Source: Phycisphaerae bacterium
GTDB lineage: Bacteria; Planctomycetota; Phycisphaerae; Sedimentisphaerales; SG8-4
Reading direction: 5' to 3'
Length of the DNA: 12,911 nucleotides
Assembly (NCBI GenBank): GCA_030614945.1
Contig: JAUXAH010000025.1
Coordinates: forward strand, 1-12,911
Shown here: piece after piece, positions 1-12,835 of the stretch
How positions within the stretch are numbered: position 1 is the stretch's first letter
How the letters are laid out: every line of letters starts with the position of its first letter
The notes under the pieces: generated by a model
Databases searched by the model: none
Seen by the model: only the letters and a program-made list of their open reading frames with translations
What the model was told of the DNA's origin: nothing
Translations under genes and position numbers: made by a program

Positions 1-706
1 CGTGAAACTCGCAGATTTGCTTGCCGAGCAGGCGTATCTCCTCATAGATATCGTAGCCGGCTTTATGAGAGTTGCCCACATCGTAATAAACCTTGACGGC
101 GGGCGAGCCGACCCGGTCGATGATATCCAGGTGCTGCTCGGCACTGAGCCAGCTTTCCAGGCCGAGAAAAACGCCTGCCTCCTCCGCCTTCGGCGCTACC
201 CTCTTAAGCCGCTCGACAACGGTATCAATACCCTTGTTGTCGTTTCGCAGGTCAGCATTGCCGAAAAAGGCGAGGAGAACAACGTTGACCCCCATTGCCT
301 TGCAGACGTCAATACTCTCGGCGACCCACCGCTCGGCGCGAGGGTCGCTCTGGTAGGGGACACCGTTAAGAACCCCAAGGGCCAGCGACGCTATCTGCAT
401 GTCGTGCTTGTCTGCCTCCTCAAGGATTTTCTTTTGCAGGTCCGGATTGAACAGCGGCAGGTCATCCTGCCCACTTCCAAAGTCCACCTGCACACCGTCG
501 AGTCCCAGCCGCTTGGCCATCTCGAACGAAGCGGGATTGGTCTTCTTACCTATTGTCCAGTCGCAGACGCCAATTTTGAAACCCTGACCGGCCGGGCCGC
601 CTAACAAAGGTCCGAAAGGCCGACACGAAGCGGTCAATGTAAGCCCGGCAACGGCACAGGCGCTATTTACCATCATCTCGCGACGAGTCATTCGCAACCG
701 CTTCAT
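1..706 (-). CDS. Sugar phosphate isomerase/epimerase family protein, exported, 3' end outside window
   Basis: This is a TIM-barrel protein of the xylose-isomerase-like family. I translated the minus strand directly, and the frame stays open to the window edge, giving 235 codons with the C-terminus missing. Two ATGs lie 6 bases apart (712 and 706). The GGAGG at 714-718 is only 1 base from the first but 7 from the second, so I place the start at 706. The N-terminus has a twin-arginine stretch (MTRREMMV, residues 6-13), a hydrophobic segment and TASC with Cys28 as an imperfect lipobox, suggesting Tat export and possibly lipidation. Family-typical segments follow: a glutamate in FLGLESWL and YYDVGNSHKAG, the usual metal-ligand strands. 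It is the last visible gene of a cassette, 72 bases after the oxidoreductase. Family members include epimerases and lyases acting on 3-keto sugars. That role here is inferred from the neighbours, and the substrate is unknown. Confidence 0.85.
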   Translation of the reverse strand, partial: MKRLRMTRREMMVNSACAVAGLTLTASCRPFGPLLGGPAGQGFKIGVCDWTIGKKTNPASFEMAKRLGLDGVQVDFGSGQDDLPLFNPDLQKKILEEADKHDMQIASLALGVLNGVPYQSDPRAERWVAESIDVCKAMGVNVVLLAFFGNADLRNDNKGIDTVVERLKRVAPKAEEAGVFLGLESWLSAEQHLDIIDRVGSPAVKVYYDVGNSHKAGYDIYEEIRLLGKQICEFH

Positions 707-778
707 TTTCATACCTCCACAGAAAAACCAATACTGCGAGCCAAAAACCAGCCGATATTTTTCGCACTCAATTTCTCT

Positions 779-2038
779 TTATGCTTTCAAACCTTTAAGG
801 TTTGCGTCCAACTTCTCTTTGCTGTTGACAATTTCGCTCCAGGTTACCTTTCGGCGCCGGTAGGCAGCGGTGCGGCCGAGTACCGTCAGCAGGTTGCTGC
901 GAACGCTCTCGGCAACTGTCGGATTGTCAAACTTGCCTTGAACAATGCTCTTATGGAATGTCGCAATGTTTGCCACGGCCCCATCTTTGTAGATGCCGGG
1001 GCTTCTGCCGCCGCGATAGAAATCCTCTCCCTTTGCGCGGATAAGGACCTGTCCGCCGTACTGTGTCTCGAGCACGCCCTTGGAGCCGAACATTCGATTC
1101 CGAATACCCTCGGGTTTTGTCCCGTGTCCCTTAAACTGTCTGGAACTGAAGGTGACACCCACATTGTTTGAATATTGAAACAGCAGCGTGAAATGGTCCC
1201 AACAGGTGCCGACGGGCCGCACCGTTCTCCCCCCGGTCCCCACCGCCCAAATCGGTTCCTGGTTCATTATCCAACTCATTACGTCGAGCGTGTGAATGTT
1301 CTGCTCGGTGATAATATCGCCCGAAATTATTTTATCGAGTCCCCACGCCCGAAGACGATTCTCAGGATTCTTCGGGTCATCCCGCCACGTCTTGTACATG
1401 CGCCCGAACGGGTCACCGGCGTGGTAGGTTGACTCACCGAACACAAATTCACCCAGCGCGCCATTGCGAACGCGTTTAAGCGCCTCCATATAAAACTTGT
1501 CGGCACGCGTCTGGAAATCAACGAGGAAACACAGCTTCTTGGCCGTGGCCTTCCTGCCGCTTCTGGCGATACTGTGACAGCCGGGCACATCCACAGCGAG
1601 CGGCTTGGCAACGTAAACGTGACAGCCGGCGTCCACCGCATCAGCGGCCTGCTCAGGATGAAAATACGGCGGGCTCTCAATCGCCACCGCGTCCACCTTA
1701 TCAAGCAGTTTGCGATAACCTGACAGGCCGGTATAACGGCGGGCATTTGCCACACCCAACTTGCCGCCGCAGCCATCGACCCTGTCCTGGAAGTAGTCCG
1801 CCGCGGCCACGACATTGTATCCGCCGTGCTGCTTGAACAGTTCGGCTATCCAGGTTCCCCGGCCGCCGCAGCCGATTATTCCCAAATCGACCTTCGAGTT
1901 GGCCTCCGTTCCGCGAACAAGCGCCGGCTTAATCACCGTAAACGACAGTGCCGTCGCCCCGGCGCCGGCAATGAACCGACGACGAGTGAGCCGCTTTCGG
2001 CTTTTATCTGTTATTGTAGTTTTTCCAAATTCGGCCAT
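779..2038 (-). CDS. Gfo/Idh/MocA family oxidoreductase, Tat-exported
   Basis: This is a 419-residue NAD(P)-dependent sugar oxidoreductase. The N-terminus has a clear twin-arginine signal, TRRRF at residues 18-22, followed by an Ala-rich hydrophobic stretch to about residue 42. The Rossmann fold starts at about residue 50 with GCGGRG (56-61). The usual EKP motif is AKP (144-146): the lysine is kept and the glutamate lost. The EQNIHTLD segment (about 245-252) supplies the histidine/aspartate normally found near the active site. A GGAGG sits 8 bases before the ATG. The gene lies between the DUF1080 lipoprotein (58-base gap) and the isomerase/epimerase (72-base gap), which suggests one transcript. 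Family members oxidise hydroxyl groups of sugars or polyols, often at C3. Tat export fits a protein that leaves the cytoplasm folded with bound cofactor. The substrate cannot be read from the sequence. Confidence 0.92.
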   Translation of the reverse strand: MAEFGKTTITDKSRKRLTRRRFIAGAGATALSFTVIKPALVRGTEANSKVDLGIIGCGGRGTWIAELFKQHGGYNVVAAADYFQDRVDGCGGKLGVANARRYTGLSGYRKLLDKVDAVAIESPPYFHPEQAADAVDAGCHVYVAKPLAVDVPGCHSIARSGRKATAKKLCFLVDFQTRADKFYMEALKRVRNGALGEFVFGESTYHAGDPFGRMYKTWRDDPKNPENRLRAWGLDKIISGDIITEQNIHTLDVMSWIMNQEPIWAVGTGGRTVRPVGTCWDHFTLLFQYSNNVGVTFSSRQFKGHGTKPEGIRNRMFGSKGVLETQYGGQVLIRAKGEDFYRGGRSPGIYKDGAVANIATFHKSIVQGKFDNPTVAESVRSNLLTVLGRTAAYRRRKVTWSEIVNSKEKLDANLKGLKA

Positions 2039-2096
2039 TTTGTAGTCCTCCTTATTATAGGGTTCCTAAATTTTGCAATACATCGCATACTTGGAG

Positions 2097-2744
2097 CTAT
2101 CTTAGTTCCGTGATTTTAATGTTACGGTAGTCAAGCCGGCTCCCATGGTTCTGCAGACCGATATAGCCCTTCGTTCGCGCCAGGCCCGGATGCGTGGCCA
2201 GCTTATCCTTGTACTCGCTTACGTCGGTGTCCACTATGACTGTGCCGTTCACAGTAATCTGCACCATCGGCCCATTACAGACGATAATCATTTTCTGCCA
2301 TTCGTTTGCCTTTTTAGTGGCGCGCTTAGACGGCGCTTGAACATCATAAATGCTGCCGGTGTATTGACTCGGCCTCAACTTCGCCCACTGCTGCGCGTAA
2401 TCATCGAGTATCTGGATTTCCATCCCCTCATACGCAGGATTGCCCTCGTGCGGCGCCCGCACAAATACGCCGCTGTTGCCTCCCGGGGGCACGCGAAACT
2501 CCAGCTCCAGTTTGAAGTTGTCATACTCTTGCCTGGTGGACAGCCAGCCTCCGCCGCCCCCGCCGGTGTACAGAATTCCATCTTCAAACTTCCAGCTTCC
2601 TTCTCGCCCGCCTATCTGCTGCCAATCGTCCAGGCCATTGACCAGCAGGTCCTGTTTTGGACTTAAGCCGAACTCCGCACAGGAACCAACAAACGCAACC
2701 ATCAACGCCAACAAAACCACTGATACGACCTTCTTTTGATACAT
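2097..2744 (-). CDS. DUF1080 (3-keto-disaccharide hydrolase) domain lipoprotein
   Basis: The reading frame is open further upstream, but the ATG at 2744 is the likely start: it has GGGAG 8 bases before it and begins a signal sequence. The product is 215 residues. Residues 5-18 are hydrophobic and VGSC (19-22) is a good lipobox, so this should be a lipid-anchored extracytoplasmic protein. The rest is a single DUF1080 (PF06439) domain, a jelly-roll fold: LVNGLDDWQQ at the start, a Gly-rich turn followed by LSTRQEYDNFKLELEF, then RVPPGGNSGVFVRAP, YEGMEIQILDD and the closing GYIGLQNHG. The family includes enzymes that cleave 3-keto-glycosides; others are structural or unknown. It heads the cassette with the Gfo/Idh/MocA oxidoreductase and the isomerase/epimerase. 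The family call is firm; the enzymatic role is inferred from the neighbourhood. Confidence 0.9.
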   Translation of the reverse strand: MYQKKVVSVVLLALMVAFVGSCAEFGLSPKQDLLVNGLDDWQQIGGREGSWKFEDGILYTGGGGGGWLSTRQEYDNFKLELEFRVPPGGNSGVFVRAPHEGNPAYEGMEIQILDDYAQQWAKLRPSQYTGSIYDVQAPSKRATKKANEWQKMIIVCNGPMVQITVNGTVIVDTDVSEYKDKLATHPGLARTKGYIGLQNHGSRLDYRNIKITELR

Positions 2745-3066
2745 CTTATTTCTCCCAAAAATAATACAAAACCAATTCCTGTTACTATGTAACTTAGGGG
2801 GCTGCCCGCGACCTTTGAATAACGCAGTCGGCCTACAAGAATACTCGCAACCAGATACGGAGTCAAGCGTAATTTCGCCTCGCACCAATTGAGCTTCGGC
2901 TCACCCCGTAAGTTGGCCGTTGGTCTTACGGGGCTCGGAATGACAAATTTAGCGGGGCTGTGAGGCCCGATTAAATCAGGACTTGCAGCTTTTTTCTTTT
3001 TTTGACCGCTCTCCGCGGCCTCTTCATAGGCGGCTAAACGTCACAAAGCGGTTATTGCAGGCACTA
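2745..3066. other. Spacer without a gene, hairpins only
   Basis: I see no credible gene in these 322 bases. The upstream in-frame extension of the DUF1080 reading frame (2745-2888) has no ribosome binding site and no protein-like content. The spacer holds a short dyad (GTTAC-TAT-GTAAC, 2781-2793) close to where the DUF1080 promoter should lie, a double hairpin at 2891-2933 and a copy of the TGTCATTCCGAG repeat motif on the minus strand at 2934-2945. A T-rich run lies at about 2990-3003. No convincing sigma-70 promoter was found. Confidence 0.6.
2891..2933. repeat. Double hairpin, first copy of the TTGGCCGTTGG-loop element
   Basis: GAGC-TTCG-GCTC (2891-2902) is a small hairpin with a UUCG-type tetraloop. 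It is followed at once by CCCCGTAAG (2904-2912) and its exact complement CTTACGGGG (2925-2933) around a 12-base loop TTGGCCGTTGGT. A second hairpin with almost the same loop occurs at 6723-6752, so this is a dispersed element rather than a simple terminator. No T-run follows directly. Confidence 0.7.
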
Positions 3067-3636
3067 CTATTTGGCTTTAACTTTAGCTTTTGTGGTGCCT
3101 TTTTTATGTCCATTAGCTTCAGTAAGATAACCTATTTGTGCTTTTGACTTTGGGGTTGGTATTAACATCTTTGATAGCAAATTAAAAACGAACTTGAACT
3201 GCTCCTCGTACTTGCGTTCCATCGATTCGATTTTGCGTCTGAGCGCGGAGTTTGTGGCGAGAATCTGGCGCAGTTTAACAAATGTTCTCATAATTGCAAT
3301 ATTGACCTCAATAGCCCGCCTGCTCCGCAGAACACTGGAAAGCATAGCAACTCCCTGCTCGGTAAATGCGTAGGGTGCGTATCGGCGACCACCTCGTCCT
3401 TCTTTTGAGGTCGCAAATTGCGACCTCAAACGTTCAACTTCATCATTGCTCAACTGAAACATAAAGTCCGATGGAAAACGCTCAATATTACGCCGAACCT
3501 GCTCATTAAGCCTCTTGGTGGTTACGCCATACAACTCGGCTAAGTCCCTGTCTAATATAACCTTGTGTCCTCTGATAAACAGAATACTTCTGTATATCCG
3601 TTCAACAGGAACAATTGAGTCAGTCTTTTTAGCCAT
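3067..3636 (-). CDS. ORF6N domain-containing protein
   Basis: This 189-residue protein has an N-terminal ORF6N domain (PF10543), a presumed DNA-binding module found in phage, virus and bacterial proteins related to KilA-N/antirepressor proteins. Recognisable blocks are ILFIRGHKVILDRDLAELYGV (residues about 18-38), the RNIERFPSDFMFQLS segment, LRSQFATS (70-77), GRGGRRYAPYAFTEQGVAMLSSVL and an IMRTFVKLRQIL helix. A charged, probably coiled-coil stretch and a Lys-rich tail follow. I prefer the ATG at 3636, with GGTGAG 8 bases upstream, to the in-frame GTG at 3645. The DNA coding LRSQFATS is a perfect 27-bp palindrome, and two related palindromes lie upstream. It stands alone, with no phage genes nearby. 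The family call is firm; the biological role is unknown, with autoregulation only a hypothesis. Confidence 0.9.
   Translation of the reverse strand: MAKKTDSIVPVERIYRSILFIRGHKVILDRDLAELYGVTTKRLNEQVRRNIERFPSDFMFQLSNDEVERLRSQFATSKEGRGGRRYAPYAFTEQGVAMLSSVLRSRRAIEVNIAIMRTFVKLRQILATNSALRRKIESMERKYEEQFKFVFNLLSKMLIPTPKSKAQIGYLTEANGHKKGTTKAKVKAK
3404..3430. promoter_or_regulatory. Perfect 27-bp palindrome inside the ORF6N gene
   Basis: The arms TTTGAGGTCGCAA and TTGCGACCTCAAA flank one central base. On the coding strand the site spells residues 70-77 of the ORF6N protein. The core unit TTGAGGT-N11-ACCTCAA (3405-3429) recurs with identical spacing at 3665-3689 and 3722-3746. It could be an intragenic operator, an mRNA hairpin or a by-product of a conserved protein motif. 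Confidence 0.6.
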
Positions 3637-3664
3637 ATTTACCACTCACCAAATAAACATAAAC

Positions 3665-3689
3665 TTGAGGTCACAAAATGTGACCTCAA
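3665..3689. promoter_or_regulatory. 25-bp palindrome upstream of the ORF6N gene
   Basis: The arms TTGAGGTCACA and TGTGACCTCAA flank AAA, about 29 bases upstream of the ORF6N start codon, where an operator would be expected. Half-sites and spacing match the intragenic palindrome. The inner bases differ, but on both sides together, so the symmetry is kept. Confidence 0.6.
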
Positions 3690-3720
3690 ATTTAGCTGGT
3701 CACAATCCGTAACAACCTAT

Positions 3721-3747
3721 CTTGAGGTTCCAGACTGGAACCTCAAG
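3721..3747. promoter_or_regulatory. Perfect 27-bp palindrome further upstream of the ORF6N gene
   Basis: The arms CTTGAGGTTCCAG and CTGGAACCTCAAG flank one base. The outer TTGAGGT/ACCTCAA half-sites are identical to the other two copies, while the inner arm has changed with compensation. It begins 57 bases from the previous copy. Confidence 0.6.
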
Positions 3748-3802
3748 TCGCAACTTAACCAAAATTCTCTTTCCCGTCAAACCAGAACCCCGTCCCACAC
3801 CA

Positions 3803-3837
3803 CGCAATACGCATCACGAGCAACAAGCAACAAAATC
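3803..3837. repeat. 7-bp periodic array abutting the plsC stop
   Basis: Five consecutive heptads read CGCAATA, CGCATCA, CGAGCAA, CAAGCAA, CAAAATC. The array ends one base from the stop codon of the acyltransferase gene (3839-3841, minus strand). Its CGCAATA unit is shared with the arrays at 6804-6838 and 8103-8116. Confidence 0.65.
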
Positions 3838-3838
3838 A

Positions 3839-4531
3839 TCAATAATCATACGGCTCTTTGCCGTGCTTTATCCGGCTTTCCGTCTGCATCCGGCGCAGCG
3901 TATCGGTTAAGAGCTCTGCAAGCTGCCTGTCATTCATATTCGCGACCTGCTCGGCCGGTATGGCTTTGGCGTAGCAGACGTCAATCCGTCCGGGTGAAAA
4001 TATCTTCTTATGCCTCGGCCAGCATTCAAAGGCGCCGTCAATCAATACCGGCACAACCGCCGCCTCTCCCCGCCTGCACAAAAGGCCAAAGCCGGGTTTG
4101 AAAGGTGTAATTTTGCCGTCGCTCGTACGCGTTCCCTCCGGAAAAAGACAAACTCCCCTGCCTTCTTTGAGTTTGCCGATGACCTTCCTCATCGCAGACA
4201 AATCCGGTTTACCCTGCTTGACCGGTATAGTATTGACCGAAGAAATCAGCCGGCCGAAAAACCTGTTTTTCCAGAGCGAATCACGGGCAAGAAAATACAA
4301 AGGCCTTTTCAAAGGTATTCCGCAAAATACCGGGTCGAGATAGCTCTGGTGGTTACCGACCAGCACAAAAGCGCCTTTATCGGGAACATTTTCCCTCCCA
4401 TAAACATGAATCCGAAAAAATAGATTGCAAAAAATCCAGCACCAAAACCGTGCAAACCGGAACCATCTCATTTTGGGCTCGCGCCGTTTTGGTGCTGGAC
4501 AAATCCAGCGTGCAAAGCGGAACCATCTCAT
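3839..4531 (-). CDS. plsC: PlsC-type 1-acyl-glycerol-3-phosphate acyltransferase
   Basis: This is a 230-residue acyltransferase that would transfer an acyl chain to lysophosphatidic acid at the inner membrane. The HX4D catalytic motif is NHQSYLD (H61, D66) and FPEGTR (130-135) is the substrate-binding motif, followed by a conserved PVLIDGA block. The chosen ATG at 4531 overlaps the cmk stop as ATGA, which suggests translational coupling; an in-frame ATG at 4552 (GGAAG 5 bases upstream) would add seven residues. The N-terminus is odd: MRWFRFAR occurs twice, 20 residues apart, from a 60-bp direct duplication. Starting at the second copy (ATG at 4471) would give a protein of more usual layout, with a hydrophobic segment just before VYGRENVP. 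The family call is secure; the true start is not. Confidence 0.9.
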   Translation of the reverse strand: MRWFRFARWICPAPKRREPKMRWFRFARFWCWIFCNLFFRIHVYGRENVPDKGAFVLVGNHQSYLDPVFCGIPLKRPLYFLARDSLWKNRFFGRLISSVNTIPVKQGKPDLSAMRKVIGKLKEGRGVCLFPEGTRTSDGKITPFKPGFGLLCRRGEAAVVPVLIDGAFECWPRHKKIFSPGRIDVCYAKAIPAEQVANMNDRQLAELLTDTLRRMQTESRIKHGKEPYDY

Positions 4532-4536
4532 TTTTG
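4451..4536 (-). repeat. 60-bp in-frame direct duplication at the start of plsC
   Basis: The segments 4451-4475 and 4511-4536 are nearly identical (GCAAA, C or G, then CGGAACCATCTCATTTT) and lie exactly 60 bases apart. Both include the ATGAGATGGTTCCG start context of plsC. Between them, 14-bp inverted arms (4435-4448 and 4486-4499, TCCAGCACCAAAAC and its complement) indicate a more complex rearrangement. Confidence 0.8.
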
Positions 4537-5244
4537 GTTTCTTTTCAGGCATTTTTCTTCCACGCAGCGCAAAACCTTTTCTACAACCTCTTCTATACTC
4601 AAATCGGTGGTGTCGATAACAACAGCATCATCAGCCGGCCTTAATGGCCCCACTGCTCTGTCCTCGTCGCTTTTGTCCCTTTCTTCTATGGCCTTTTGTA
4701 TTTGCTCAAGACTTTCACCCAGCCCATCCGATGGGGAGGGTTCACCGCCGCCTTTGGCCCGCAACTCAGCCTGTCTTCTTCTTGCCCTCTCGCCGGCATC
4801 AGCCGTCAGATAAAATTTTACATCGGCGTCGGAAAACGCCACAGTGCCCTGGTCTCTTCCCTCGGTAACGATTTTTTCCTCTCCTGCCGCAAACCGCCTC
4901 TGCATCCGGACCAACTTCTCCCGCAGCTTTGCCGCCGAAGCGATATGCCGGGCCTTGGCGGTAACTTCCGGCCCGCGTATCCGCTCGGTAACATCAACCC
5001 CATTGATGCGAACCGCCATTTTGCCTTCTTTGACCGCAAATTGAAATTCGCTTGTTTCCAGAACGCCGAGCAGCTTCTCCTCATCGCCCATATCGACGCC
5101 GGCCTCAATCGCAGCTAACGTAACAGCCCGATACATCGCACCGGTATCGAGGAAACTCGCCCCCAGCCGTTCAGCTAACAGTCGCGCCACCGTGCTCTTA
5201 CCGCTGGCCGCAGGACCATCAATTGTAATAACCAGATTCGACAT
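4528..5244 (-). CDS. cmk: Cytidylate kinase
   Basis: This is a 238-residue (d)CMP kinase that converts CMP and dCMP to the diphosphates in the cytoplasm. The P-loop GPAASGKST is at residues 10-18, followed by the family's FLDTGAMYRAVT segment. The central VTERIRGPEVT and EGRDQGTVAF motifs (where many members read EGRDIGTVVF) and the FYLTADAGERARRR lid region are present. The length is normal for the family. The gene ends in an ATGA overlap with plsC, a pairing common in bacteria. The ATG at 5244 has no Shine-Dalgarno sequence: the bases before it are taken up by TGGTAAC-type heptads and a 15-bp tandem array that separate it from the upstream phosphatase gene. Coupling from that gene or an unusual initiation mode is possible. 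Confidence 0.95.
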   Translation of the reverse strand: MSNLVITIDGPAASGKSTVARLLAERLGASFLDTGAMYRAVTLAAIEAGVDMGDEEKLLGVLETSEFQFAVKEGKMAVRINGVDVTERIRGPEVTAKARHIASAAKLREKLVRMQRRFAAGEEKIVTEGRDQGTVAFSDADVKFYLTADAGERARRRQAELRAKGGGEPSPSDGLGESLEQIQKAIEERDKSDEDRAVGPLRPADDAVVIDTTDLSIEEVVEKVLRCVEEKCLKRNQK

Positions 5245-5252
5245 CTTAGATT

Positions 5253-5280
5253 TGGTAACTGGTAATTGGTAACTGGTAAC
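5253..5280. repeat. TGGTAAC heptad array upstream of cmk
   Basis: Four consecutive heptads read TGGTAAC, TGGTAAT, TGGTAAC, TGGTAAC. They end 8 bases from the cmk start codon (5244, minus strand), where a ribosome binding site would normally lie, and run directly into the 15-bp array at 5282. Confidence 0.75.
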
Positions 5281-5281
5281 T

Positions 5282-5352
5282 ATTTAACCAATCACCATTT
5301 AACCAATCACCATTTAACCAATCACCGTTTAACCAATCACCGTTTAACCACC
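5282..5352. repeat. 15-bp tandem array running into the 3' end of the phosphatase gene
   Basis: Four full units of (A/G)TTTAACCAATCACC occur at 5282-5296, 5297-5311, 5312-5326 and 5327-5341, with a partial fifth at 5342-5352. The partial unit encodes the last residues (VVKR) of the GAF/PP2C protein and unit four carries its TGA stop. The other full units carry the same TGA on the minus strand. Confidence 0.85.
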
Positions 5353-6602
5353 TTGACAACAATAATACTCGTATCATCACACTGACTGGCAAGTCCCACA
5401 AACCGCCTTCTGTACCCGAGTATATTTTTAAGCATCTGCTCCGCCGAGCCTGCGGTAAACTTCTTTGCGGTTTTCAGCAAACTTTCCCTGCCCCAGAATT
5501 GGCCATCGAAGTTGGCTGCGTCAATCAGCCCGTCGCTGTAAAACAGCAAACAATCACCATCCGCAAGCGCCATCGTTTCAATCTCGTATTCCGCCTGCGG
5601 CTCGACTCCGAGCACAAGTCCGCCTTTTTCCAGTTCCGTAATTTGCCCTTCTCTTATCAGCACCGTCGGCTCGTGCCCGCAATTGCAATAGGTTACAGCC
5701 ATATCTTTAACGTCAATGATTGCATAAAACAGCGTAACAAACTCGCCGTCCCTGCACTCACTGCACGCCATCTTATTTAGCTTATCGATAATCTCCCGTA
5801 TAGCTTCGCTGCTGCCTTCGGTATCGGCGTAAGCCCGCACAGCACCTCTAAAACAACTCATCATTAGTGCCGCAGGAATACCTTTGCCTATCACATCGGC
5901 AATCGCCACGACAACGCAGGTGTCACTTACCTGAAGAAAATCGTAAAGGTCACCGCCCACGTCAAAACAGGGAATATAAGCAGCCGCTATATCCAGACCC
6001 GGTATCAGCGGCGCCTTTTCCGGAATCATCCTCCGCTGAATAACCCCTGCCAGCCGCATCTGCTCGGCGATGCGCGCTCCTTCAATCGCCTCTGCATACA
6101 ACCGGGCGTTTGTTATCGCAACAGCACACTGTGAAGCAACCGCCCTGGCCAGGCCGATATCATCTTCATCAAAGCGTTTCGGCCTGGGACTATACAACCG
6201 AAGCACGCCAATCGCTTTATCCCTGAATTGCATCGCAACGGTAAGCTGGCTGACAAGACCTTCTCTTATCGTCGCCTCTTTGTATTTGACCCTGTCATCA
6301 ACCCGCATATCGTCCAGAACCACCGCTTCGCCCGCAAAAGCAGCTTTAATTACGGTATCGTTTTTCGAGACAGGCCCCTTGTTGCGGTACTCTTCGCTGA
6401 GGCCATACGTACTTCGCATCTTCAAATCGTCGGCCTCTTCATCCAGCAGCCGAATCGAGCAGGCCTTGACGCCGGTAATCTTCACTGCCGCCTCCGCGAG
6501 CTTGTCCAGCGCCTCTTGAAGCGAAAAATCACCCGCCACAAGCGTCGTAAGCTGATAAAGCTGCTCATCTCTTTCTATCTGTCTCTTTGTCTTCTTTGCC
6601 AT
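5337..6602 (-). CDS. GAF domain plus SpoIIE/PP2C-type serine phosphatase (RsbU-like)
   Basis: This 421-residue cytoplasmic signalling protein has two domains. An N-terminal GAF domain (about residues 12-170) begins after a Lys-rich start. A short helix with AEQMRLAGVIQRRMIP (about 179-195) follows, the linker usual in RsbU-like proteins. The SpoIIE phosphatase domain (about 200-421) has all metal-binding motifs: GGDLYDF (216-222), ADVIGKG (235-241), YSDGLID (355-361) and CDDTSI (408-413). No membrane segment is present. Such proteins dephosphorylate anti-anti-sigma (STAS) proteins in partner-switching pathways; no STAS or anti-sigma gene is visible here. I chose the ATG at 6602 over an in-frame TTG at 6608; neither has a strong Shine-Dalgarno sequence. 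Its 3' end merges with a 15-bp tandem repeat. Confidence 0.92.
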   Translation of the reverse strand: MAKKTKRQIERDEQLYQLTTLVAGDFSLQEALDKLAEAAVKITGVKACSIRLLDEEADDLKMRSTYGLSEEYRNKGPVSKNDTVIKAAFAGEAVVLDDMRVDDRVKYKEATIREGLVSQLTVAMQFRDKAIGVLRLYSPRPKRFDEDDIGLARAVASQCAVAITNARLYAEAIEGARIAEQMRLAGVIQRRMIPEKAPLIPGLDIAAAYIPCFDVGGDLYDFLQVSDTCVVVAIADVIGKGIPAALMMSCFRGAVRAYADTEGSSEAIREIIDKLNKMACSECRDGEFVTLFYAIIDVKDMAVTYCNCGHEPTVLIREGQITELEKGGLVLGVEPQAEYEIETMALADGDCLLFYSDGLIDAANFDGQFWGRESLLKTAKKFTAGSAEQMLKNILGYRRRFVGLASQCDDTSIIVVKVVKR

Positions 6603-6634
6603 AATCAACCACTATTATCCCGATTGCCGTTTGT

Positions 6635-6662
6635 CGAGAATCGAGAATCGAGTATCGAGCAT
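6635..6662. repeat. CGAGNAT heptad array
   Basis: Four consecutive heptads read CGAGAAT, CGAGAAT, CGAGTAT, CGAGCAT. The array lies about 33 bases upstream of the GAF/PP2C gene. The same heptad family makes up the longer array at 7781-7822. Confidence 0.75.
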
Positions 6663-6722
6663 GGATTATACGGCACTTTATGCTCCTGGTGAACCCTAAT
6701 TTATTTCGCCATCATTCGCTTG

Positions 6723-6752
6723 CCCCGAAGGTTGGCCGTTGGGCTTTCGGAG
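6723..6752. repeat. Second copy of the TTGGCCGTTGG-loop hairpin
   Basis: The arms CCCCGAAGG and CTTTCGGAG enclose a 12-base loop TTGGCCGTTGGG that matches the loop at 2913-2924 in 11 of 12 bases. The stem differs from the first copy but still pairs, with one mismatch and one G-T wobble, as expected for a dispersed structured element. Confidence 0.65.
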
Positions 6753-6803
6753 CTTGTATCAAAAATCGTTTTAGGTTACGATATTATGTTGTTGGTTTGA
6801 ATG

Positions 6804-6838
6804 CGCAATACGATATACGCAATACGCAATACGAGAAA
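6804..6838. repeat. CGCAATA heptad array abutting the acylphosphatase start
   Basis: Five heptads read CGCAATA, CGATATA, CGCAATA, CGCAATA, CGAGAAA. The last base of the array is the A of the acylphosphatase ATG, so the array fills the ribosome-binding region. Confidence 0.75.
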
Positions 6839-7107
6839 TGACTGCTAAACATATAATTTTTATCGGCCAGGTCCAGGGTGTCGGCTTTCGCTTCACCGCC
6901 TTTCGTATAGCCAACCGCTATAAGCTGACCGGCTTTGTCCGCAACGCACCTGAGGGCACCGTTGAAATGCTCGCCCAGGGCCGTCCTGACGACATTGCCG
7001 ATTGCATCCGGGACATCGAAGACGCCTTTACCGGCTACATAAGAGAGACCAAAATCGAACAAGTTACCTTCAACCCCCAATACACAGACTTCAAAATTAC
7101 ATTTTAA
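6838..7107 (+). CDS. acyP: Acylphosphatase
   Basis: This is a complete 89-residue acylphosphatase, which hydrolyses acyl phosphates to a carboxylate and phosphate in the cytoplasm. Both family signatures are present: GQVQGVGFR (residues 10-18) with the phosphate-binding Arg18, and GFVRNAPEGTVEMLAQG with the catalytic Asn36. The length is typical. It is the first plus-strand gene after a minus-strand block and stands alone, ending in a terminator hairpin at 7178. The ATG is directly preceded by an array of CGCAATA-type heptads and has no recognisable Shine-Dalgarno sequence. No other start in frame would keep the first beta strand. Confidence 0.93.
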   Translation: MTAKHIIFIGQVQGVGFRFTAFRIANRYKLTGFVRNAPEGTVEMLAQGRPDDIADCIRDIEDAFTGYIRETKIEQVTFNPQYTDFKITF

Positions 7108-7177
7108 TCAATCGCCAACTGCTCACTCCCACAAGGCCAGAAAACAAAACCAAAAGAAGAATAGCTGCCCAAAAACA

Positions 7178-7212
7178 AAAGGCCTGTCTTTGCGGCAGGC
7201 CTTTCCAATTTT
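7178..7212 (+). terminator. Intrinsic terminator after acyP, possibly bidirectional
   Basis: AAAGGCCTG (7178-7186) pairs with CAGGCCTTT (7196-7204) around a 9-base loop, and a T-run follows at 7208-7212. The complementary strand also continues into a T-rich stretch, so it may serve the converging remnant gene at 7232 as well. Confidence 0.75.
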
Positions 7213-7231
7213 TATCTCTGATGTTTTATGG

Positions 7232-7651
7232 CTATCGCAACACGTCTTCGCCCTCTTCAGTTTCGACGGGCTTGACATCCGTCTTTTTCATCAGTCGTTT
7301 GGCCTTCGATATCAAATCGACCAGCTCAATCACATCCGCATCACCCTTGAATTCTCTGCTGAGCTGCTGGGCACGCTCGAGCGCTCTCTCAAGCGTTGCG
7401 CCTTTGGCCCAGTAGCTTTTGCGAAGAATCTCGGCAAATTCAGCAACAGTTGCGGCAAGCTTAAATTCGCTGCTCGAACCACCAAAACTCTCATTGAAAT
7501 CGCCCGCAGCCATAGGACTCTTGAACTCGGTTACCGCTGTCGTATCGGCGTGTTTATAGCGGACATAAGTGGTGGCGACGGTGCCTTTTTTGTCGGGCCA
7601 CCCAGGAATTCCCCCCACATATCGGCATCGCCTGCAGATATTCCCGTCCAA
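7232..7651 (-). pseudogene. C-terminal remnant of a YfbK-like von Willebrand factor A protein (DUF3520)
   Basis: The minus-strand frame encodes 139 residues, but only about residues 20-139 look like a protein domain: YVRYKHADTTAVTEF, then SSEFKLAATVAEFAEILR, ATLERALERAQQL and a closing helix with ELVDLISKAKRL. This matches the C-terminal DUF3520 domain of YfbK-like proteins, which normally follows a complete von Willebrand factor A domain in a protein of several hundred residues. Here the frame opens just after a TAA, its only upstream start is a TTG without a ribosome binding site, and the first 20 residues are Cys/Arg-rich and not family-like. I therefore read it as a decayed gene that has lost its N-terminal part, with recognisable sequence starting near 7585. 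An expressed stand-alone domain is less likely. Confidence 0.7.
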
Positions 7652-7780
7652 CTTCGTTGGTTAGACTGCTCAGTCACTTTCTTGAACGTCCCTTTCTGGT
7701 ACCAGCTTCTACTAACTATTATGCGCGCAAAAAGCAAATTGCTCACACATTTTTAATATTTCCTGACGCATCCCCCAACA

Positions 7781-7822
7781 CGAGCAACGAGCATCGAGTA
7801 TCGAGCATCGAGAATCGAGATA
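7781..7822. repeat. CGAGNAT heptad array, six units
   Basis: Consecutive heptads read CGAGCAA, CGAGCAT, CGAGTAT, CGAGCAT, CGAGAAT, CGAGATA. A 12-base part (7798-7809, GTATCGAGCATC) is repeated in inverted orientation at 7880-7891, on the other side of the promoter. Confidence 0.8.
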
Positions 7823-7837
7823 TTTTCCCCAACCAGC

Positions 7838-7866
7838 TTGACACAAAAGGATTGTCCGGCTAAACT
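7838..7866 (+). promoter_or_regulatory. Sigma-70-like promoter for the small membrane protein gene
   Basis: A consensus -35 TTGACA (7838-7843) is followed, after exactly 17 bases, by TAAACT (7861-7866), which matches four of six -10 positions. Transcription would start near 7873 and give a leader of about 63 bases before the start codon at 7936. The leader contains a CTCGAT/ATCGAG hairpin (7884-7901). Confidence 0.5.
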
Positions 7867-7935
7867 GACCCTGATACTGGATGCTCGATACGGGAATCGA
7901 GAATAAGACTGGATAAATCTGGAGAGGATATCGAA

Positions 7936-8100
7936 ATGCTTGCCCTGTTAGAAGTAAGTCTCGTTAGGCACACATTGAGTTGTCAAGAGGAACTTCTAAC
8001 GGGGCTGGCTGTACTCTTCGGTCAAGGTGAAGTACTGGTAATCGTTATCATCACTGCGCTTGTGCTCTTTCTGATCCTCCGCCGACGCCAAAAACGCTGA
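7936..8100 (+). CDS. Small single-pass membrane protein, unknown family
   Basis: This is a 54-residue frame starting at ATG 7936, with GGAGAGG 8 bases upstream, one of the best ribosome binding sites in the window, and a promoter further upstream. The N-terminal half is amphipathic (MLALLEVSLVRHTLS). The C-terminal half is one membrane segment, VLVIVIITALVLFLIL (residues 33-48), followed by the basic tail RRRQKR, predicting a cytoplasmic C-terminus. The FGQGEVLVIVI segment superficially recalls TatA, but the rest of that family's pattern is missing. The early coding sequence contains a 13-bp stem with one wobble (7943-7955 with 7992-8004). The stop lies 15 bases from the converging stop of the next gene. 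I do not recognise the family; that it is a real gene rests on the promoter, ribosome binding site and membrane profile. Confidence 0.6.
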   Translation: MLALLEVSLVRHTLSCQEELLTGLAVLFGQGEVLVIVIITALVLFLILRRRQKR

Positions 8101-8102
8101 TA

Positions 8103-8116
8103 CGCAATACGAACAT
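8103..8116. repeat. Short CGCAATA heptad pair between two converging stops
   Basis: Two heptads, CGCAATA and CGAACAT, fill almost the whole 15-base gap between converging genes. They match the arrays at 3803 and 6804, but two units alone are weak evidence. Confidence 0.4.
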
Positions 8117-8895
8117 CATTCTCCGAGATGTCGGACCACCCCAAGTTTTCGAGGCACAACCAGGTCCGCCTTCCTGGCCGATTGGTCTTCTTTCACTTTG
8201 TAATTAACGTCCATAATTTCAATAAACTCGGCTGTATACTCCTTCAACACGCCGCAATATTCGAATATCTTATCACCTTTAATCAGCTCAAGCACAACCT
8301 TGCTGCCGATATACCTCTCTAATAATGGCTCGAAGGAAGTCCCCACCGAACCCATCAATTCCTGCTTCATCCGCGAGACGTATTTATCTTGAGAAGTCAG
8401 CACCGCCCCGGCTGGAGTGGCTTTTTTGGCCTGACTGATTAACAGATTTACCACCTCCATCACCGAATCTCTCACCGTCTTGAAGACGTTTTGTATTTTT
8501 CTTTTAACCTTTCGCAGCAGTGTCGGATGATAGGTCCTTTTTAATTCCTTCTCTCTTTCTTTTCTATTACTTTCGCTCAATTCATCGTGGTAGCGAATCA
8601 AGGCCGCAATATTAGGATACTCGTATTTATATAGAATATAGCTGGTCTCATCGTGCCCCTCTTGGTCTTTGTGCTTTGTCGGGTAAACGAATTCCAGCCC
8701 GGTATTTTCCACGTTCAATTTACCCCAGATTGTCTTGCCCGATGTCTCTTCCAGCGTTACCATATTCCGCCCAAAATCCTTCAGGCATTTATCCCTGCTT
8801 CTTCTTCTGATAAAAGCGCCAACGCCCGTAGCCAGGACAATAAAAATTATAGTTATTGCTGCATAAGGTATCGTTACGGCAAAAATATAAGGCAT
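8116..8895 (-). CDS. Membrane-anchored protein of unknown function
   Basis: This is a 259-residue protein with one N-terminal membrane segment (about residues 5-27) followed by RRRSRDK, so the bulk should face the cytoplasm. A domain with FGRNMVTLEETSGKTIWGKLNVENTGLEFVYP comes next, an LSm/SH3-barrel-like pattern by eye. A charged, probably helical region (residues about 105-150) leads to a second beta-rich part, SKVVLELIKGDKIFEYCGVLKEYTAEFIEIMDV (about 200-232), and a short tail. GGGGAG lies 8 bases before the ATG, so the start is good. It sits alone between repeat-rich spacers and converges on the small membrane protein gene. I recall no named family with certainty; the two 'modify, then GVLKEYTAEFIE' segments hint at duplicated small beta-barrels. 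It could be C-terminally shortened, which I cannot test. Confidence 0.75.
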   Translation of the reverse strand: MPYIFAVTIPYAAITIIFIVLATGVGAFIRRRSRDKCLKDFGRNMVTLEETSGKTIWGKLNVENTGLEFVYPTKHKDQEGHDETSYILYKYEYPNIAALIRYHDELSESNRKEREKELKRTYHPTLLRKVKRKIQNVFKTVRDSVMEVVNLLISQAKKATPAGAVLTSQDKYVSRMKQELMGSVGTSFEPLLERYIGSKVVLELIKGDKIFEYCGVLKEYTAEFIEIMDVNYKVKEDQSARKADLVVPRKLGVVRHLGE

Positions 8896-8983
8896 AATAA
8901 ACTCCCCTTAAAACAGTCTCCAAAATTTTAGATAAGTCTCTGATTCTTCCGAAGTTAGAAGCATTTAAGCGAAGTATCCCACA

Positions 8984-9130
8984 TAACCGTTCACGATGGC
9001 AAAACGGCGTTTTCGTGTCATTGCGAGGCCTTTAGGCCGAAGCAATCTCAAATTTTCGCAGCAGAGAGATTGCCTCGCTCGCAATGACATAAAACGGCCA
9101 AAATTCAGCATATTGACCCGTGAACGGTTA
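8984..9130. repeat. Nested palindromic element, MITE-like
   Basis: The outer 12-bp arms are TAACCGTTCACG (8984-8995) and its exact complement (9119-9130). Inside, TGTCATTGCGAG (9016-9027) pairs with its complement at 9078-9089, and within that GCAATCTC (9042-9049) pairs with GAGATTGC (9066-9073). A GGCC-TTTA-GGCC hairpin lies at 9027-9038. The inner GTCATTGCGAG...GCAATCTC pattern resembles a dispersed intergenic repeat that I recall from many unrelated bacterial genomes. No transposase is present. Confidence 0.75.
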
Positions 9131-9151
9131 CCGTCAGCACCGCAGTCACAG

Positions 9152-9186
9152 GAAACTTGAAACTTTAAACTTAAAACTTAAAATTA
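9152..9186. repeat. AAACTT heptad array
   Basis: Five heptads read GAAACTT, GAAACTT, TAAACTT, AAAACTT, AAAATTA. The period of 7 is the same as in the other arrays, although the sequence is unrelated. Confidence 0.75.
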
Positions 9187-9241
9187 GTCGACGCCGGCCA
9201 TATAATAACCAGAACCATCAGCGCTGTCAAATCAAAACCTC

Positions 9242-9269
9242 ACACGAGACACGAAATACGAGATACAAT
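9242..9269. repeat. ACACGA heptad array
   Basis: Four heptads read ACACGAG, ACACGAA, ATACGAG, ATACAAT, in the upstream region of the prolyl oligopeptidase gene. Confidence 0.65.
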
Positions 9270-9297
9270 CCGCGGTTAACGGCGAGAAAAGTTTTAC

Positions 9298-9326
9298 TTG
9301 AAAACCCGGCACGGCCCAATTAAAGT
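9298..9326 (+). promoter_or_regulatory. Possible promoter of the prolyl oligopeptidase gene
   Basis: TTGAAA (9298-9303) and TAAAGT (9321-9326) are 17 bases apart, a fair but not strong sigma-70 match. The predicted leader would be about 80 bases. Confidence 0.25.
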
Positions 9327-9412
9327 AAGCCCGCGCTTTGGCAAGCTATGCTTCAGCCCGCCCGGAACAATAGCCAACTACTCGAATAGAACAATATAAG
9401 GTGTAGTCTATT

Positions 9413-11518
9413 ATGAAGACGTTATACATTCGCTTACTTGTTACTATGACCGTTTCCGCCGCATTATGCTGCGGATGCCAGAGACCATTCCCAACCGACA
9501 TTTATCACGGCGTCAAAGTTCCCGACCCCTACCGTTGGCTCGAAGATGCCGATTCATCTGAAACGCTGTCGTGGGTAGCGCAGCAGAACAAGTTGACCTC
9601 CGACTTCCTCACCGGCGTTAGCGCCAGAGAGAAAATCAAGGCCCGCCTGACCCATCTGTTGAATTACCCCAGGTATTCCGCTCCCTACAAAAAAGGCGAC
9701 CGTTACTTCTTCTGGAAAAATGACGGACTGCAAAATCAATCTGTCCTCTACACGCAAAAAACGCTCGAAAGCAAACCGAGCATCGTCATCAACCCCAACT
9801 TACTGAGCGAAGACGGCACCGTCGCTATAACCACCACGGCCATTAGCAAAGACGGCACCCTGCTGGCCTACGCCCTCTCCCGCAGCGGAAGCGACCGCCG
9901 AGATGTCAAAATCCGAACAATCGATTCCAGCCGGGACTACGATGAAACTCTTCAATGGTGTCGATTCGCCGACATCGCCTGGAAACACAACAACGAAGGC
10001 TTCTTTTACAATCGCTTCCCCGACCCAAACACCGTCCACCCCGAAGACCAAAGCAACTACAACCGTGTTTACTGGCACAAGCTCGGCACGCCCCAATCCG
10101 AAGACCAGCTCATTTACGAACGCCCCGACAACAAAGAATTAGACTTCTCCCCCTCCATTACCGAAGACGGCAAATTCCTCATCCTCCACGTATATCACGG
10201 CACCGACCCTAAGAATCGCGTTTATTACCGCCCTGTCGAAAGCACCGCACCATTTATCAGATTGCTCGACGACGCCGACGCCCGTTACGACTTTATTGGC
10301 AATATTGACTCGGTCTTTTACTTCAATTCCGACCTCAATGCACCACGCGGACGCATCATCGCCATCGACACCAATAATCCTGCCCCTGAAAACTGGCGCG
10401 AAATCCTCCCCCAGCAAACCGACGTCATCGATTACGTCGCCCTCATCAACAACCACTTCGTCGTCGCTTATATGCACGATGTCCACCACCAGCTCAAAAT
10501 CTATAATCTCGATGGAACTTTCGTCCGTAACATCCCCCTTCCGACCCTCGGCACAGTCGGCGGCCTCTCCGGAAAGCAAGACGACACCGAAATGTTCTTC
10601 TCTTTCACTTCTTTTCTCTTTCCCGGCACAAGCTATCGCTATGATTTTCTCACTCAGCAGTTGACAGTCGTTCACAAACCTAAAATCGATTTCGACCCTT
10701 CGCACTATGAAACCAAACAGGTATTCTATCATTCCGGAGATGGCACCCGTGTCCCTATGTTCATCACCCATAAGAAAGGTCTAAAGCTCGACGCCGGCAA
10801 CCCGACCCTGCTTTACGGCTACGGCGGATATAACATCAGCCTCAAACCATATTTTTCCGTCTACACCCTGACCTGGCTGGAGATGGGCGGCGTATATGCC
10901 GTCGCAAACTTGCGAGGAGGTGGAGAGTACGGCGAAGAATGGCACCAGGCAGGGATGCTCGACAAAAAGCAAAACGTCTTTGACGACTTTATCGCCGCCG
11001 CAGAATGGCTCATCGAAAACAAATATACTAATCCTAACAAGCTCGCCATAAGAGGCGGAAGCAATGGCGGCCTGCTCGTCGCCGCCTGCATGCTCCAGCG
11101 GCCCCGTCTCTTTGGTGCCGTCGTCTGCCAGGTCCCCGTTACCGATATGTTAAGGTACCACAAGTTCACCGTCGGCCGCTACTGGATACCGGAATACGGC
11201 AGCGCTGAAGCCACCCCGCAAGAGTTCAAGGTTTTATACGCTTATTCTCCTCTCCACAATGTCAAGACAGGCGTTGAATATCCACCTATCCTCGTTACCT
11301 CAGCCGATACTGACGACCGCGTCGTCCCCGCTCACGCCAAAAAATTCGTCGCCGCCCTCCAGGCGAAAGCCGCCGGCAAAAATCCCATTTTGCTTCGCAT
11401 CGAAACCAAAGCCGGACACGGCCGGGGCAAACCAATATCAAAAGTCATCGACGAACAGGCCGACATTTACGCCTTCCTCCTAAAGACATTAGACCTGCAA
11501 AACAATAGCGTCAAATAA
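9413..11518 (+). CDS. Prolyl oligopeptidase family serine peptidase (S9A), probable lipoprotein
   Basis: This is a complete 701-residue prolyl oligopeptidase, which cleaves short peptides after proline. Residues 1-22 form a signal sequence ending in LCCGC, an atypical lipobox with Cys22 as the likely lipidated residue, so it should act outside the cytoplasmic membrane. The family start YHGVKVPDPYRWLED (about 31-45) follows almost at once. A seven-bladed propeller domain spans roughly residues 75-430. The C-terminal alpha/beta-hydrolase domain has the full triad: Ser550 in GGSNGG, Asp634 in ADTDDRVVP and His669 in KAGHGRGKP, with Arg636 as the expected substrate-binding residue. AAGGTG lies 9 bases before the ATG. 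It stands alone and converges on the broken threonine aldolase gene. Confidence 0.95.
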   Translation: MKTLYIRLLVTMTVSAALCCGCQRPFPTDIYHGVKVPDPYRWLEDADSSETLSWVAQQNKLTSDFLTGVSAREKIKARLTHLLNYPRYSAPYKKGDRYFFWKNDGLQNQSVLYTQKTLESKPSIVINPNLLSEDGTVAITTTAISKDGTLLAYALSRSGSDRRDVKIRTIDSSRDYDETLQWCRFADIAWKHNNEGFFYNRFPDPNTVHPEDQSNYNRVYWHKLGTPQSEDQLIYERPDNKELDFSPSITEDGKFLILHVYHGTDPKNRVYYRPVESTAPFIRLLDDADARYDFIGNIDSVFYFNSDLNAPRGRIIAIDTNNPAPENWREILPQQTDVIDYVALINNHFVVAYMHDVHHQLKIYNLDGTFVRNIPLPTLGTVGGLSGKQDDTEMFFSFTSFLFPGTSYRYDFLTQQLTVVHKPKIDFDPSHYETKQVFYHSGDGTRVPMFITHKKGLKLDAGNPTLLYGYGGYNISLKPYFSVYTLTWLEMGGVYAVANLRGGGEYGEEWHQAGMLDKKQNVFDDFIAAAEWLIENKYTNPNKLAIRGGSNGGLLVAACMLQRPRLFGAVVCQVPVTDMLRYHKFTVGRYWIPEYGSAEATPQEFKVLYAYSPLHNVKTGVEYPPILVTSADTDDRVVPAHAKKFVAALQAKAAGKNPILLRIETKAGHGRGKPISKVIDEQADIYAFLLKTLDLQNNSVK

Positions 11519-11530
11519 CCCCTGGAAGTT

Positions 11531-11577
11531 TGTCATCCTGAGCACAGCGAAGATTGTAGGGTGGGCTTCAGCCCACC
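11531..11577. repeat. TGTCATCCTGAG motif and GGTGGGC hairpin between converging genes
   Basis: TGTCATCCTGAG (11531-11542) is a variant of the repeat motif at 9016-9027 and 2934-2945. It is followed by a hairpin, GGTGGGC-TTCA-GCCCACC (11560-11577). No T-run follows, so this looks like dispersed repeat DNA, although the hairpin could act as a weak bidirectional terminator. Confidence 0.6.
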
Positions 11578-11585
11578 AATCCCAA

Positions 11586-12093
11586 CTACGACTCCTTCAT
11601 TACCTCACCCAGCGCCGCCAGGGCCGCATCAATATCCTCGGAGCCGATGCCATAATGAGTTACCATCCGAAGGCGGGATGGCACTGTACAAAATAGCCGG
11701 ATTCCCTTTTTACCAAGTTCTGTTACCAGCTCCTCCGCCGTCAGCCGGTCGCTGACAAGCTCGAAATAGACGATATTCGTCTGCGTCCCTGCCGGGTCAA
11801 TCGATAATCCGGGGATACGTGCGATACCTTCAGCCAGACGGCGAGCATTTATATGGTCTTCCGCCAATCTATCTACCATCTGTTCCAGAGCTGTAATACC
11901 CGCCGCTGCGATGACACCCGCCTGGCGCATCCCGCCGCCCAATACCTTACGCGTCCGCCGCGCCTCGGCGATGAACTCGCCGGAACCACAGACCACCGAA
12001 CACGTCATCGCCCAGCTCGGCGTGATACACCGCCTCTCGCATCGCCGGCGTCGGCAAGGTAACGGTGTCACTGCGCAAATCAATCATCTTCAT
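11586..12093 (-). pseudogene. ltaE: Threonine aldolase with internal deletion and frameshift
   Basis: Intact low-specificity threonine aldolases are PLP enzymes of about 340 residues that split threonine to glycine and acetaldehyde. Here a proper start exists at 12093 (GGGAG 7 bases upstream), encoding [14 protein letters not shown] and on to GDDVFG, a perfect family N-terminus of 33 residues. At 11994-11999 the sequence jumps, in another frame, to [15 protein letters not shown] and the normal C-terminal part (137 residues, including LGGGMRQAG). About 170 residues are missing between them, including the region with the PLP-binding lysine. The junction bases TCGGTG fit both sides, as expected for a deletion between short direct repeats. 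The frame change prevents even a shortened in-frame product. The enzyme is therefore inactive, unless this is an assembly error. Confidence 0.85.
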
Positions 12094-12151
12094 CAGTTAT
12101 CTCCCACGCGAAAATATGGGAAATCGGACAATACCGAACACAGCTACTTAT

Positions 12152-12181
12152 AGTATATTGTAGCTTTCTCTTATTGACCAA
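12152..12181 (-). promoter_or_regulatory. Possible promoter of the threonine aldolase gene
   Basis: On the minus strand TTGGTC (12181-12176) and TATACT (12157-12152) are separated by 18 bases. This would start transcription about 50 bases before the ltaE start codon. The -10 is good and the -35 is weak. Confidence 0.35.
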
Positions 12182-12208
12182 ACGGCCTACTACAAGAGAA
12201 ACGTAGGG

Positions 12209-12811
12209 CTATTTGCCTTTTCGAAACGGCCTGAACAGCCTTAGCAGATGCAAATCTCGCCAGCTTTTTCTAATAGGAAATATCCCCTTTTCAACAAAGC
12301 TCACTTCCTCTATAGTGTAGAATGCGTTCGGATTGAATCTTTTCACAAATTGGACCACTTTTTTAACCTCTCGCCGGGGCACGATTGTGAAAATGACTTT
12401 TATCTTTCCCAGAGTACCATATCCATCAACACTGGTAACTCCATAGTTCTCAGATTTCAGATGCTCCATTAATGGCAATGCGTCTTTCTTGGTCACAACT
12501 CGTATAAGCACCACCCCTAAGGATAATTTTCCTGCTATACAAATCCCCACATAGTTACCCATTGCAAAGCCGCCCGCGTAGGCAATATAACACGCAGGAT
12601 TGGAAAGGTTCTTCATAATCTGACCGATAGCGAGAAGCCATATCAGGATTTCAAAAAACCCAACAACAGGGGCCAGATATTTCAGCCCTCTTGAAACAAA
12701 TATGACCCGGACCGTTCCCATGCTGACATCAATGACCCTTGCCATAAAGATTAGAAACGGCAGAAGGAACCAGGTATAAAATTCCGAGTTAAAAAGCAAA
12801 AGATTACCCAT
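12209..12811 (-). CDS. UPF0316 family membrane protein (DUF5698 and DUF2179)
   Basis: This is a 200-residue protein. I use the ATG at 12811, with GAGG about 9 bases upstream, rather than an in-frame ATG at 12847 that would add 12 residues. The N-terminal half has three membrane segments: FLLPFLIFMARVIDVSMGTVRVIFVS (about 12-37), a second around FFEILIWLLAIGQIM and a third around YIAYAGGFAMGNYVGICIAG. The VIDVSMGTVRVIF block is typical of DUF5698. The C-terminal half is a soluble DUF2179 domain, including YGVTSVDGYGTLGKIKVIF and VPRREVKKVVQFVKRFNPNAFYTIEEV. DUF2179 domains are thought to bind small ligands; the cellular role of UPF0316 is unknown. It precedes the broken ltaE gene by 115 bases on the same strand. 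Confidence 0.92.
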   Translation of the reverse strand: MGNLLLFNSEFYTWFLLPFLIFMARVIDVSMGTVRVIFVSRGLKYLAPVVGFFEILIWLLAIGQIMKNLSNPACYIAYAGGFAMGNYVGICIAGKLSLGVVLIRVVTKKDALPLMEHLKSENYGVTSVDGYGTLGKIKVIFTIVPRREVKKVVQFVKRFNPNAFYTIEEVSFVEKGIFPIRKSWRDLHLLRLFRPFRKGK

Positions 12812-12835
12812 ATAGATTTTCCTCGCCCAAATAAT

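Follow-up and report, generated by a model that had tools for sequence, protein, structure and literature searches.

What are three palindromes of one geometry doing in and just upstream of an ORF6N gene, and why do their inner bases differ while staying self-complementary? The question arises in a 12,911-nt stretch of a Phycisphaerae bacterium genome (contig JAUXAH010000025.1, positions 1 to 12,911; "the window" below means this whole stretch), where a preliminary description made from the sequence alone had noted three exact copies of TTGAGGT-N11-ACCTCAA. It had proposed either an autoregulatory operator set with its specificity held within the coding sequence of the regulator itself, or a mobile palindrome exchanging between ORF6N genes and spacers. 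All three copies were found where described (Table 1); the inner bases form 5/5 pairs in the first and third copies, and 4/5 in the second (CACAAAATGTG). A scan of the window at up to 3 mismatches gave no further match, whereas shuffled sequences had on average 0.38 matches at that threshold, and 2 of the 200 shuffles reached three. Translation agreed with the description as well: the first copy encodes LRSQFATS inside a minus-strand ORF6N gene (PF10543, E 8e-37), and plus-strand translation of the upstream copies would give LRSQNVTS and LRFQTGTS. Synonymous recoding of LRSQFATS reached 12 pairs in 21 of 200,000 draws with ORF6N codon usage and in 4 of 200,000 with uniform usage. The answer we reached is that the predicted recognition helix of ORF6N proteins and a palindromic site embedded in their genes coevolve, as shown by symmetry above expectation, by covariation, by a core shared between two reading frames and by prediction from one group to others.

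The first point, that palindromicity exceeds the level forced by the amino acids, had been posed as a question by the preliminary description. Searches by protein or by family yielded 219 ORF6N domains on 208 stretches, and 187 were kept after dropping those with gaps in the helix or motif, those too near an end and duplicates; the alignment profile was built from open reading frames that include palindrome-scan hits. In these 187 domains the 25-nt motif had a mean of 9.27 out of 12 complementary pairs, compared to 5.15 in a synonymous-recoding null (standard deviation 0.10, maximum 5.46 in 500 draws) and 2.0-3.6 at the other codon offsets computed, which settles the question in favour of symmetry beyond amino-acid constraint. 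Pair counts were bimodal, with 149 domains at 9 or more pairs and 38 below. By our reading of the list, the same core is present in a different frame in 25 of these 38, and 3 fall just short; the other-frame core encodes, for example, LVTNCDRF or VVANCDHL, both written GGTC[A/G]CAAATTG[T/C]GACC.

The palindrome was also linked to ORF6N genes in wider searches. A pattern scan of GTDB genome contigs returned at least 128 sites on at least 118 stretches. Among the matches listed, 82 sites had at least 4/5 inner pairs, and these lay inside ORF6N frames (51), upstream (12) or downstream (4) of one, far from ORF6N (1), or on a fetched stretch without ORF6N (14); the 46 listed sites with fewer than 4/5 inner pairs were inside ORF6N frames in 12 cases, upstream in 1 and without ORF6N in 33. 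Across 392 genomes from the phylum of G001, the nearest relative among the genomes compared, ORF6N was detected at E<=0.001 in 85. The pattern GGTCRCAANTTGYGACC occurred at 37 sites, of which 26 fell inside ORF6N hits, 7 lay at most 300 nt away and 4 were elsewhere, compared to 2 sites for the reversed control. The link that the preliminary description had proposed to look for is therefore present, with 33 of 37 sites in or at most 300 nt from ORF6N. Homologues of the window protein, at least 7996 of them, were scored regardless of site presence.

The inner bases of the embedded site follow the protein. Bases 8-9, the class of the site, go with residue 45, which is the X of T-K-x-L-N-X in the predicted recognition helix: CA is found for Q, CG for E, GC or AC for R, TC for K and, in few cases, TT for L. 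Counting genes with both arms paired at the base concerned, we found Q45 with A9 in 64/68, E45 with G9 in 38/39, R45 with C9 in 21/21, and K45 with both T8 and C9 in 16/16 each. Three further residues had rules of their own, K41 with G6 (95/96), R42 with G9 (54/54) and R49 with C10 (174/175), N or S at position 49 going with A10 (6/6). Mutual information over columns outside the motif singled out the same helix positions, namely K41 for base 6, E45 for base 8, E45 and R42 for base 9, and R49 for base 10.

Comparison of close relatives and prediction of unseen genes gave the same pattern. Among related pairs, defined as domains at least 60% identical outside the helix and motif, a differing residue 45 came with differing bases 8-9 in 74/74 disjoint pairs, and the same residue came with agreeing bases in 71/79. 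In leave-one-out prediction over 182 genes, residue 45 was correct for 164 and the nearest neighbour outside the helix and motif for 84. A code trained on the phylum of G001 scored 73/81 on itself and transferred to two further groups (40/46 and 24/26) and to viral contigs (28/29), for which a majority guess gave 21, 15 and 19. Even a synonymous choice tracked the helix, the motif Ser codon being TCA with Q45 (59/61) and TCG with E45 (33/34), and the other-frame genes, which encode VTNCD or VANCD, followed the code at E with CG in 10/10 and Q with CA in 14/14; one other-frame K gene had a chance site. In a plasmid sample of 13 named regions from 21 matching records, 13 of the 14 ORF6N domains scored had a loop palindrome of at least 8 pairs and the code matched in 13/13; no loop palindrome was found in region L546. 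Plasmid homologues include locus INE84_RS20525 of Bacteroides uniformis (NZ_CP072237). In total, in-gene sites matched the specificity of their own protein in 219/235 cases versus 74.3 expected. In this count, and in those of flanking sites over all loci, repeat fetches of a region were dropped only where they agreed exactly over 400 nt, and some genes are possibly counted twice. The site embedded in a gene appears to change along with the part of the protein that reads DNA, so that individual genes can reveal a protein-DNA code.

Sites outside the loop were distributed unevenly. The 100-nt bin holding the loop site contained 157 sites over 201 domains, and two bins spanning ~180 nt before the start codon contained 33 over 197-198 domains, including 5 that belong to the loop of an adjacent ORF6N domain. 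A further 8 sites lay close to the end of the gene (193 domains), and the other 18 bins held 13 in all. Downstream sites matched the class of their own gene in 14/29 cases versus 9.2 expected over all loci. Two or more sites occurred in 33 stop-to-stop frames, as tandem loop units <100 nt apart in 17 rows (15 distinct genes, by our reading) and with the second site elsewhere in the frame in 16. The loop of L104 has four tandem units that pass the filter, and its translation suggests five. Arrays also continue beyond genes: at L086:1232-1513, six different palindromes of mixed classes with related spacers and a ~51-nt period follow an ORF6N gene that itself has two loop units, and at L354:1297-1423, four different palindromes of mixed classes have a 34-nt period, the first lying in the loop of an ORF6N gene that runs into a stop just after. 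Lone palindromes in L004, L033, L021 and L117 adjoin toxin-antitoxin or defence-like genes, their neighbours being AbiEii, HicB, NADAR with KptA, and a weak PIN match.

We favour, with a probability of about 0.7, the interpretation that the ORF6N protein, as a dimer, binds the palindrome within its own coding sequence, with each half-site read by the second helix of a helix-turn-helix (HTH). In an AlphaFold2 model of the window protein, a helix at 29-36 and a helix at 40-49 are separated by a turn, and the second helix carries the covarying residues at i, i+1, i+4 and i+8. The proposed dimeric HTH protein would recognize TTGAGGT[8][9]CAA-N-TTG[9'][8']ACCTCAA and variants, written in the loop-coding part of its gene, with K41 linked to G6, R42 to G9, residue 45 to bases 8-9 and R49 to C10; a change in the helix would then be followed by a change of the embedded site in both arms. 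As the consequence we favour, a dimer bound inside the coding region may limit transcription of its own gene, an autorepression by roadblock. The embedded site may also tag genes on other elements that share its specificity, and through the upstream sites the gene would receive input from its own ORF6N protein or from others.

Several observations weigh against binding of this kind. By our reading of the list, 10 of the 38 domains with fewer than 9 pairs show no core in any frame, and 18 of the 182 genes violate the residue-45 rule in leave-one-out prediction, some of them with arms of different class. The base-10 rule depends on six non-Arg genes, and bases 1-4 are unexplained by the helix, their best column adjoining the motif. 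The HTH assignment comes from a model with a mean predicted local distance difference test score of 71.7, and matches to the PDB are weak. Upstream sites match the class of their own gene at chance level over all loci (21/56 versus 20.8 expected) and weakly at loci not chosen by the pattern (13/26 versus 9.6 expected, P 0.08), and loop arrays often contain units of non-matching class.

At the window itself, these results divide the operator-set proposal. Symmetry excess, helix covariation and the ORF6N linkage uphold a specificity embedded in the regulator's own coding sequence. That the three sites form one operator set of this protein is not supported: the upstream classes are CA and TC and the gene, which is of class E, expects CG; more widely, upstream matches are close to chance. 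Upstream sites probably act as operators as well, in many cases for ORF6N proteins with a different specificity.

A serious alternative, which we nevertheless consider less likely, is that the embedded site would be an address between elements, through which a resident protein silences ORF6N genes of the same class on incoming plasmids or phages. We take it seriously because ORF6N is a phage-defence candidate family (PADLOC candidate PDC-S05, with KilA-N relatives as PDC-S22) and because paralogues share a class slightly less than expected: same-genome paralogues did so in 17/77 pairs versus a permuted mean of 24.3 (one-sided P 0.044). Some plasmid ORF6N genes also have integrases, a putative abortive infection protein, or a DNA methyltransferase and restriction subunit S as neighbours. 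Against this idea, the evidence from paralogues is weak, and few phage records match (5 of 50,697). Such homoimmunity or exclusion would drive class diversification and is compatible with binding of the protein to its own site. Regions L555 and L552 comprise a Treponema plasmid, on which ORF6N is flanked on one side by a DNA methyltransferase and a small HTH gene and on the other by restriction subunit S, and an Alistipes plasmid, on which ORF6N is near KilA-N and adjoins a putative phage abortive infection gene.

The mobile-palindrome idea of the preliminary description survives in part. Here an element resembling a Rickettsia palindromic element or a miniature inverted-repeat transposable element would insert in the ORF6N loop and nearby, and the protein would not read it. 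The 33 multi-site frames with their tandem loop units, the L086 and L354 arrays inside and beside ORF6N genes, and the mixed-class copies near genes, a few of them alone, all fit insertion. A dispersing repeat is expected in unrelated genes and spacers, whereas only 4 of the 37 sites in the 392 genomes were away from ORF6N, and insertion leaves the helix covariation, the cross-group code and the synonymous Ser codon unexplained. We therefore regard an unread mobile element as improbable.

Two further explanations do without recognition of the site by the protein. DNA or RNA hairpins, or template-switch mutation between the arms, could keep the symmetry without any protein, as arm bases 1-4 vary yet stay symmetric to about position 0-1, with symmetry fading beyond; however, the class follows a helix ~30 residues away, and A-C mismatches on the coding strand exceed G-T mismatches (66 versus 28, compared to an even 35 versus 30 at flank sites), so there is no RNA wobble preference, and we find this explanation very hard to sustain. 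Protein-level covariation, in which loop residues contact the helix and DNA symmetry is incidental, would account for the change of the motif position 6 amino acid with residue 45, but it is already contradicted by the tracking of residue 45 by synonymous codons, by the same DNA and code in the VTNCD or VANCD frame, and by symmetry far above the synonymous null.

KilA-N genes (L563-L584 and L585-L664), which were taken as an intended negative control, turned out to carry a 24-bp in-gene palindrome of their own, unrelated to that of ORF6N, for example AAACCCGTCGAATTCGACGGGTTT, which encodes KPVEFDGF. It had 10.71 of 12 pairs in 70 unique domains, compared to 6.85 in the synonymous null (standard deviation 0.15). 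The most informative columns for bases 5-9 were helix columns 26, 27, 30, 31 and 34, and the corresponding rules (residue numbers are profile columns) were N31 with T8 in 38/38, D31 with G8 in 9/9, K30 with G6 in 15/16, R34 with C9 in 52/52 and Q34 with G9 in 6/6. The pair test was weaker than for ORF6N, with bases 5-9 differing in 24/30 different-face pairs and 3/20 same-face pairs, and in leave-one-out prediction of bases 7-8 the helix scored 48/68 and the nearest neighbour 40/68. In their codons and helices, KilA-N genes thus show what appears to be the same principle with an unrelated palindrome.

Both families together suggest a broader and more tentative idea, that ORF6N and KilA-N genes may be self-addressed. 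The address, held in the codons of the DNA-binding domain and read by the gene's own protein, would serve recognition of kin genes in exclusion, silencing or homing between mobile copies; gene, protein and target would diversify as a unit, and stray or arrayed palindromes would be addresses of other lineages. If so, coding sequences would suffice for learning the DNA-recognition code of the superfamily. Confirmation of binding would mean that the genes of many uncharacterised regulators contain the target of their own product, that the recognition code could be obtained without experiments on each regulator, and that regulons could be found from the learned code. The arrangement would also be a case of dual coding, in which the synonymous and amino-acid choices of one protein part are fixed by the DNA preference of another part, and it gives a testable handle on the phage-defence candidate families PDC-S05 and PDC-S22.

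The window gene has an in-frame GTG at 3645 as an alternative start, and its palindrome lies ~220 nt into the coding region. The protein scored 125.9 bits against PF10543, above the curated cut-off of 27.8, and matched PADLOC model PDC-S05 (E 2.6e-60) and a PHROG anti-repressor family (E 5.5e-31). It is not a KilA-N (PF04383) member: at E<=0.001 only ORF6N and a sub-threshold pRha match were returned. In G001, the matches flanking this locus are 88% and 91% identical and lie 45 nt apart, compared to ~950 nt in the window, so the gene and both upstream palindromes sit in a segment absent from that genome. Spacer tandem repeats of the CGAG(A/T/C)AT type occur at 6621-6679 and 7781-7825 of the window, with a similar run at the empty site of G001, and a 37-nt repeat has two spacer copies, 2899-2935 and 6718-6754, that are 81% alike.

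Table 1. Positions in the window of the ORF6N gene, its palindromes and the surrounding segment.
Feature	Position	Strand	Remarks
ORF6N-domain gene	3067..3636	minus	189 aa from ATG at 3636; Pfam PF10543, PADLOC and PHROG matches
Predicted recognition helix codons T40-N50 (TKRLNEQVRRN)	3487..3519	minus	covarying K41, R42, E45, R49
In-gene palindrome (copy 1)	3405..3429	minus	12/12 pairs; LRSQFATS; class CG, as expected for R42/E45
Upstream palindrome (copy 2)	3665..3689		class CA (Q45 proteins); centre 41 nt before ATG
Upstream palindrome (copy 3)	3722..3746		class TC (K45 proteins); centre 98 nt before ATG
Segment holding gene and upstream sites	2886..3838		comparison with nearest relative G001

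We know of no described family with this arrangement, from a literature search limited to open-licence papers. Proteins studied here match both PADLOC candidates, PDC-S05 (ORF6N) and PDC-S22 (KilA-N), and the accessible portions of the literature naming PDC-S05 offered no mechanism, only a tree model. Intragenic operators of autoregulatory repressors include lac O2 in lacZ and gal OI in galE, and such systems share with ORF6N an HTH protein (predicted in the case of ORF6N), a dyad-symmetric site and extra promoter-proximal sites; unlike them, the ORF6N site consists of codons of the regulator's own DNA-binding domain, occurs widely across the family and changes with the recognition helix. Recognition-helix residues also predict operator bases in LacI- and TetR-type families, where operator and helix are separate sequences, whereas in ORF6N a single reading frame holds both, <100 nt from each other. 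Rickettsia palindromic elements show that palindromic DNA can be tolerated in coding sequence. Like ORF6N sites, these elements and, in the accessible part of their description, the palindromic amphipathic repeat coding elements (PARCELs; PMC2996958) lie within coding sequence, sometimes in tandem; as far as that part goes, the PARCEL palindrome is not tied to a DNA-binding protein, whereas one domain family carries, and appears to read, the ORF6N site. Another parallel is the autoregulation of RNA-binding proteins through RGG motifs and RNA G-quadruplexes, in which, according to the accessible part of the source (PMC11789052), coding sequence doubles as the protein's own nucleic-acid target; in contrast to that case, the proposed ORF6N target is DNA, sequence-specific and coevolving with the protein.
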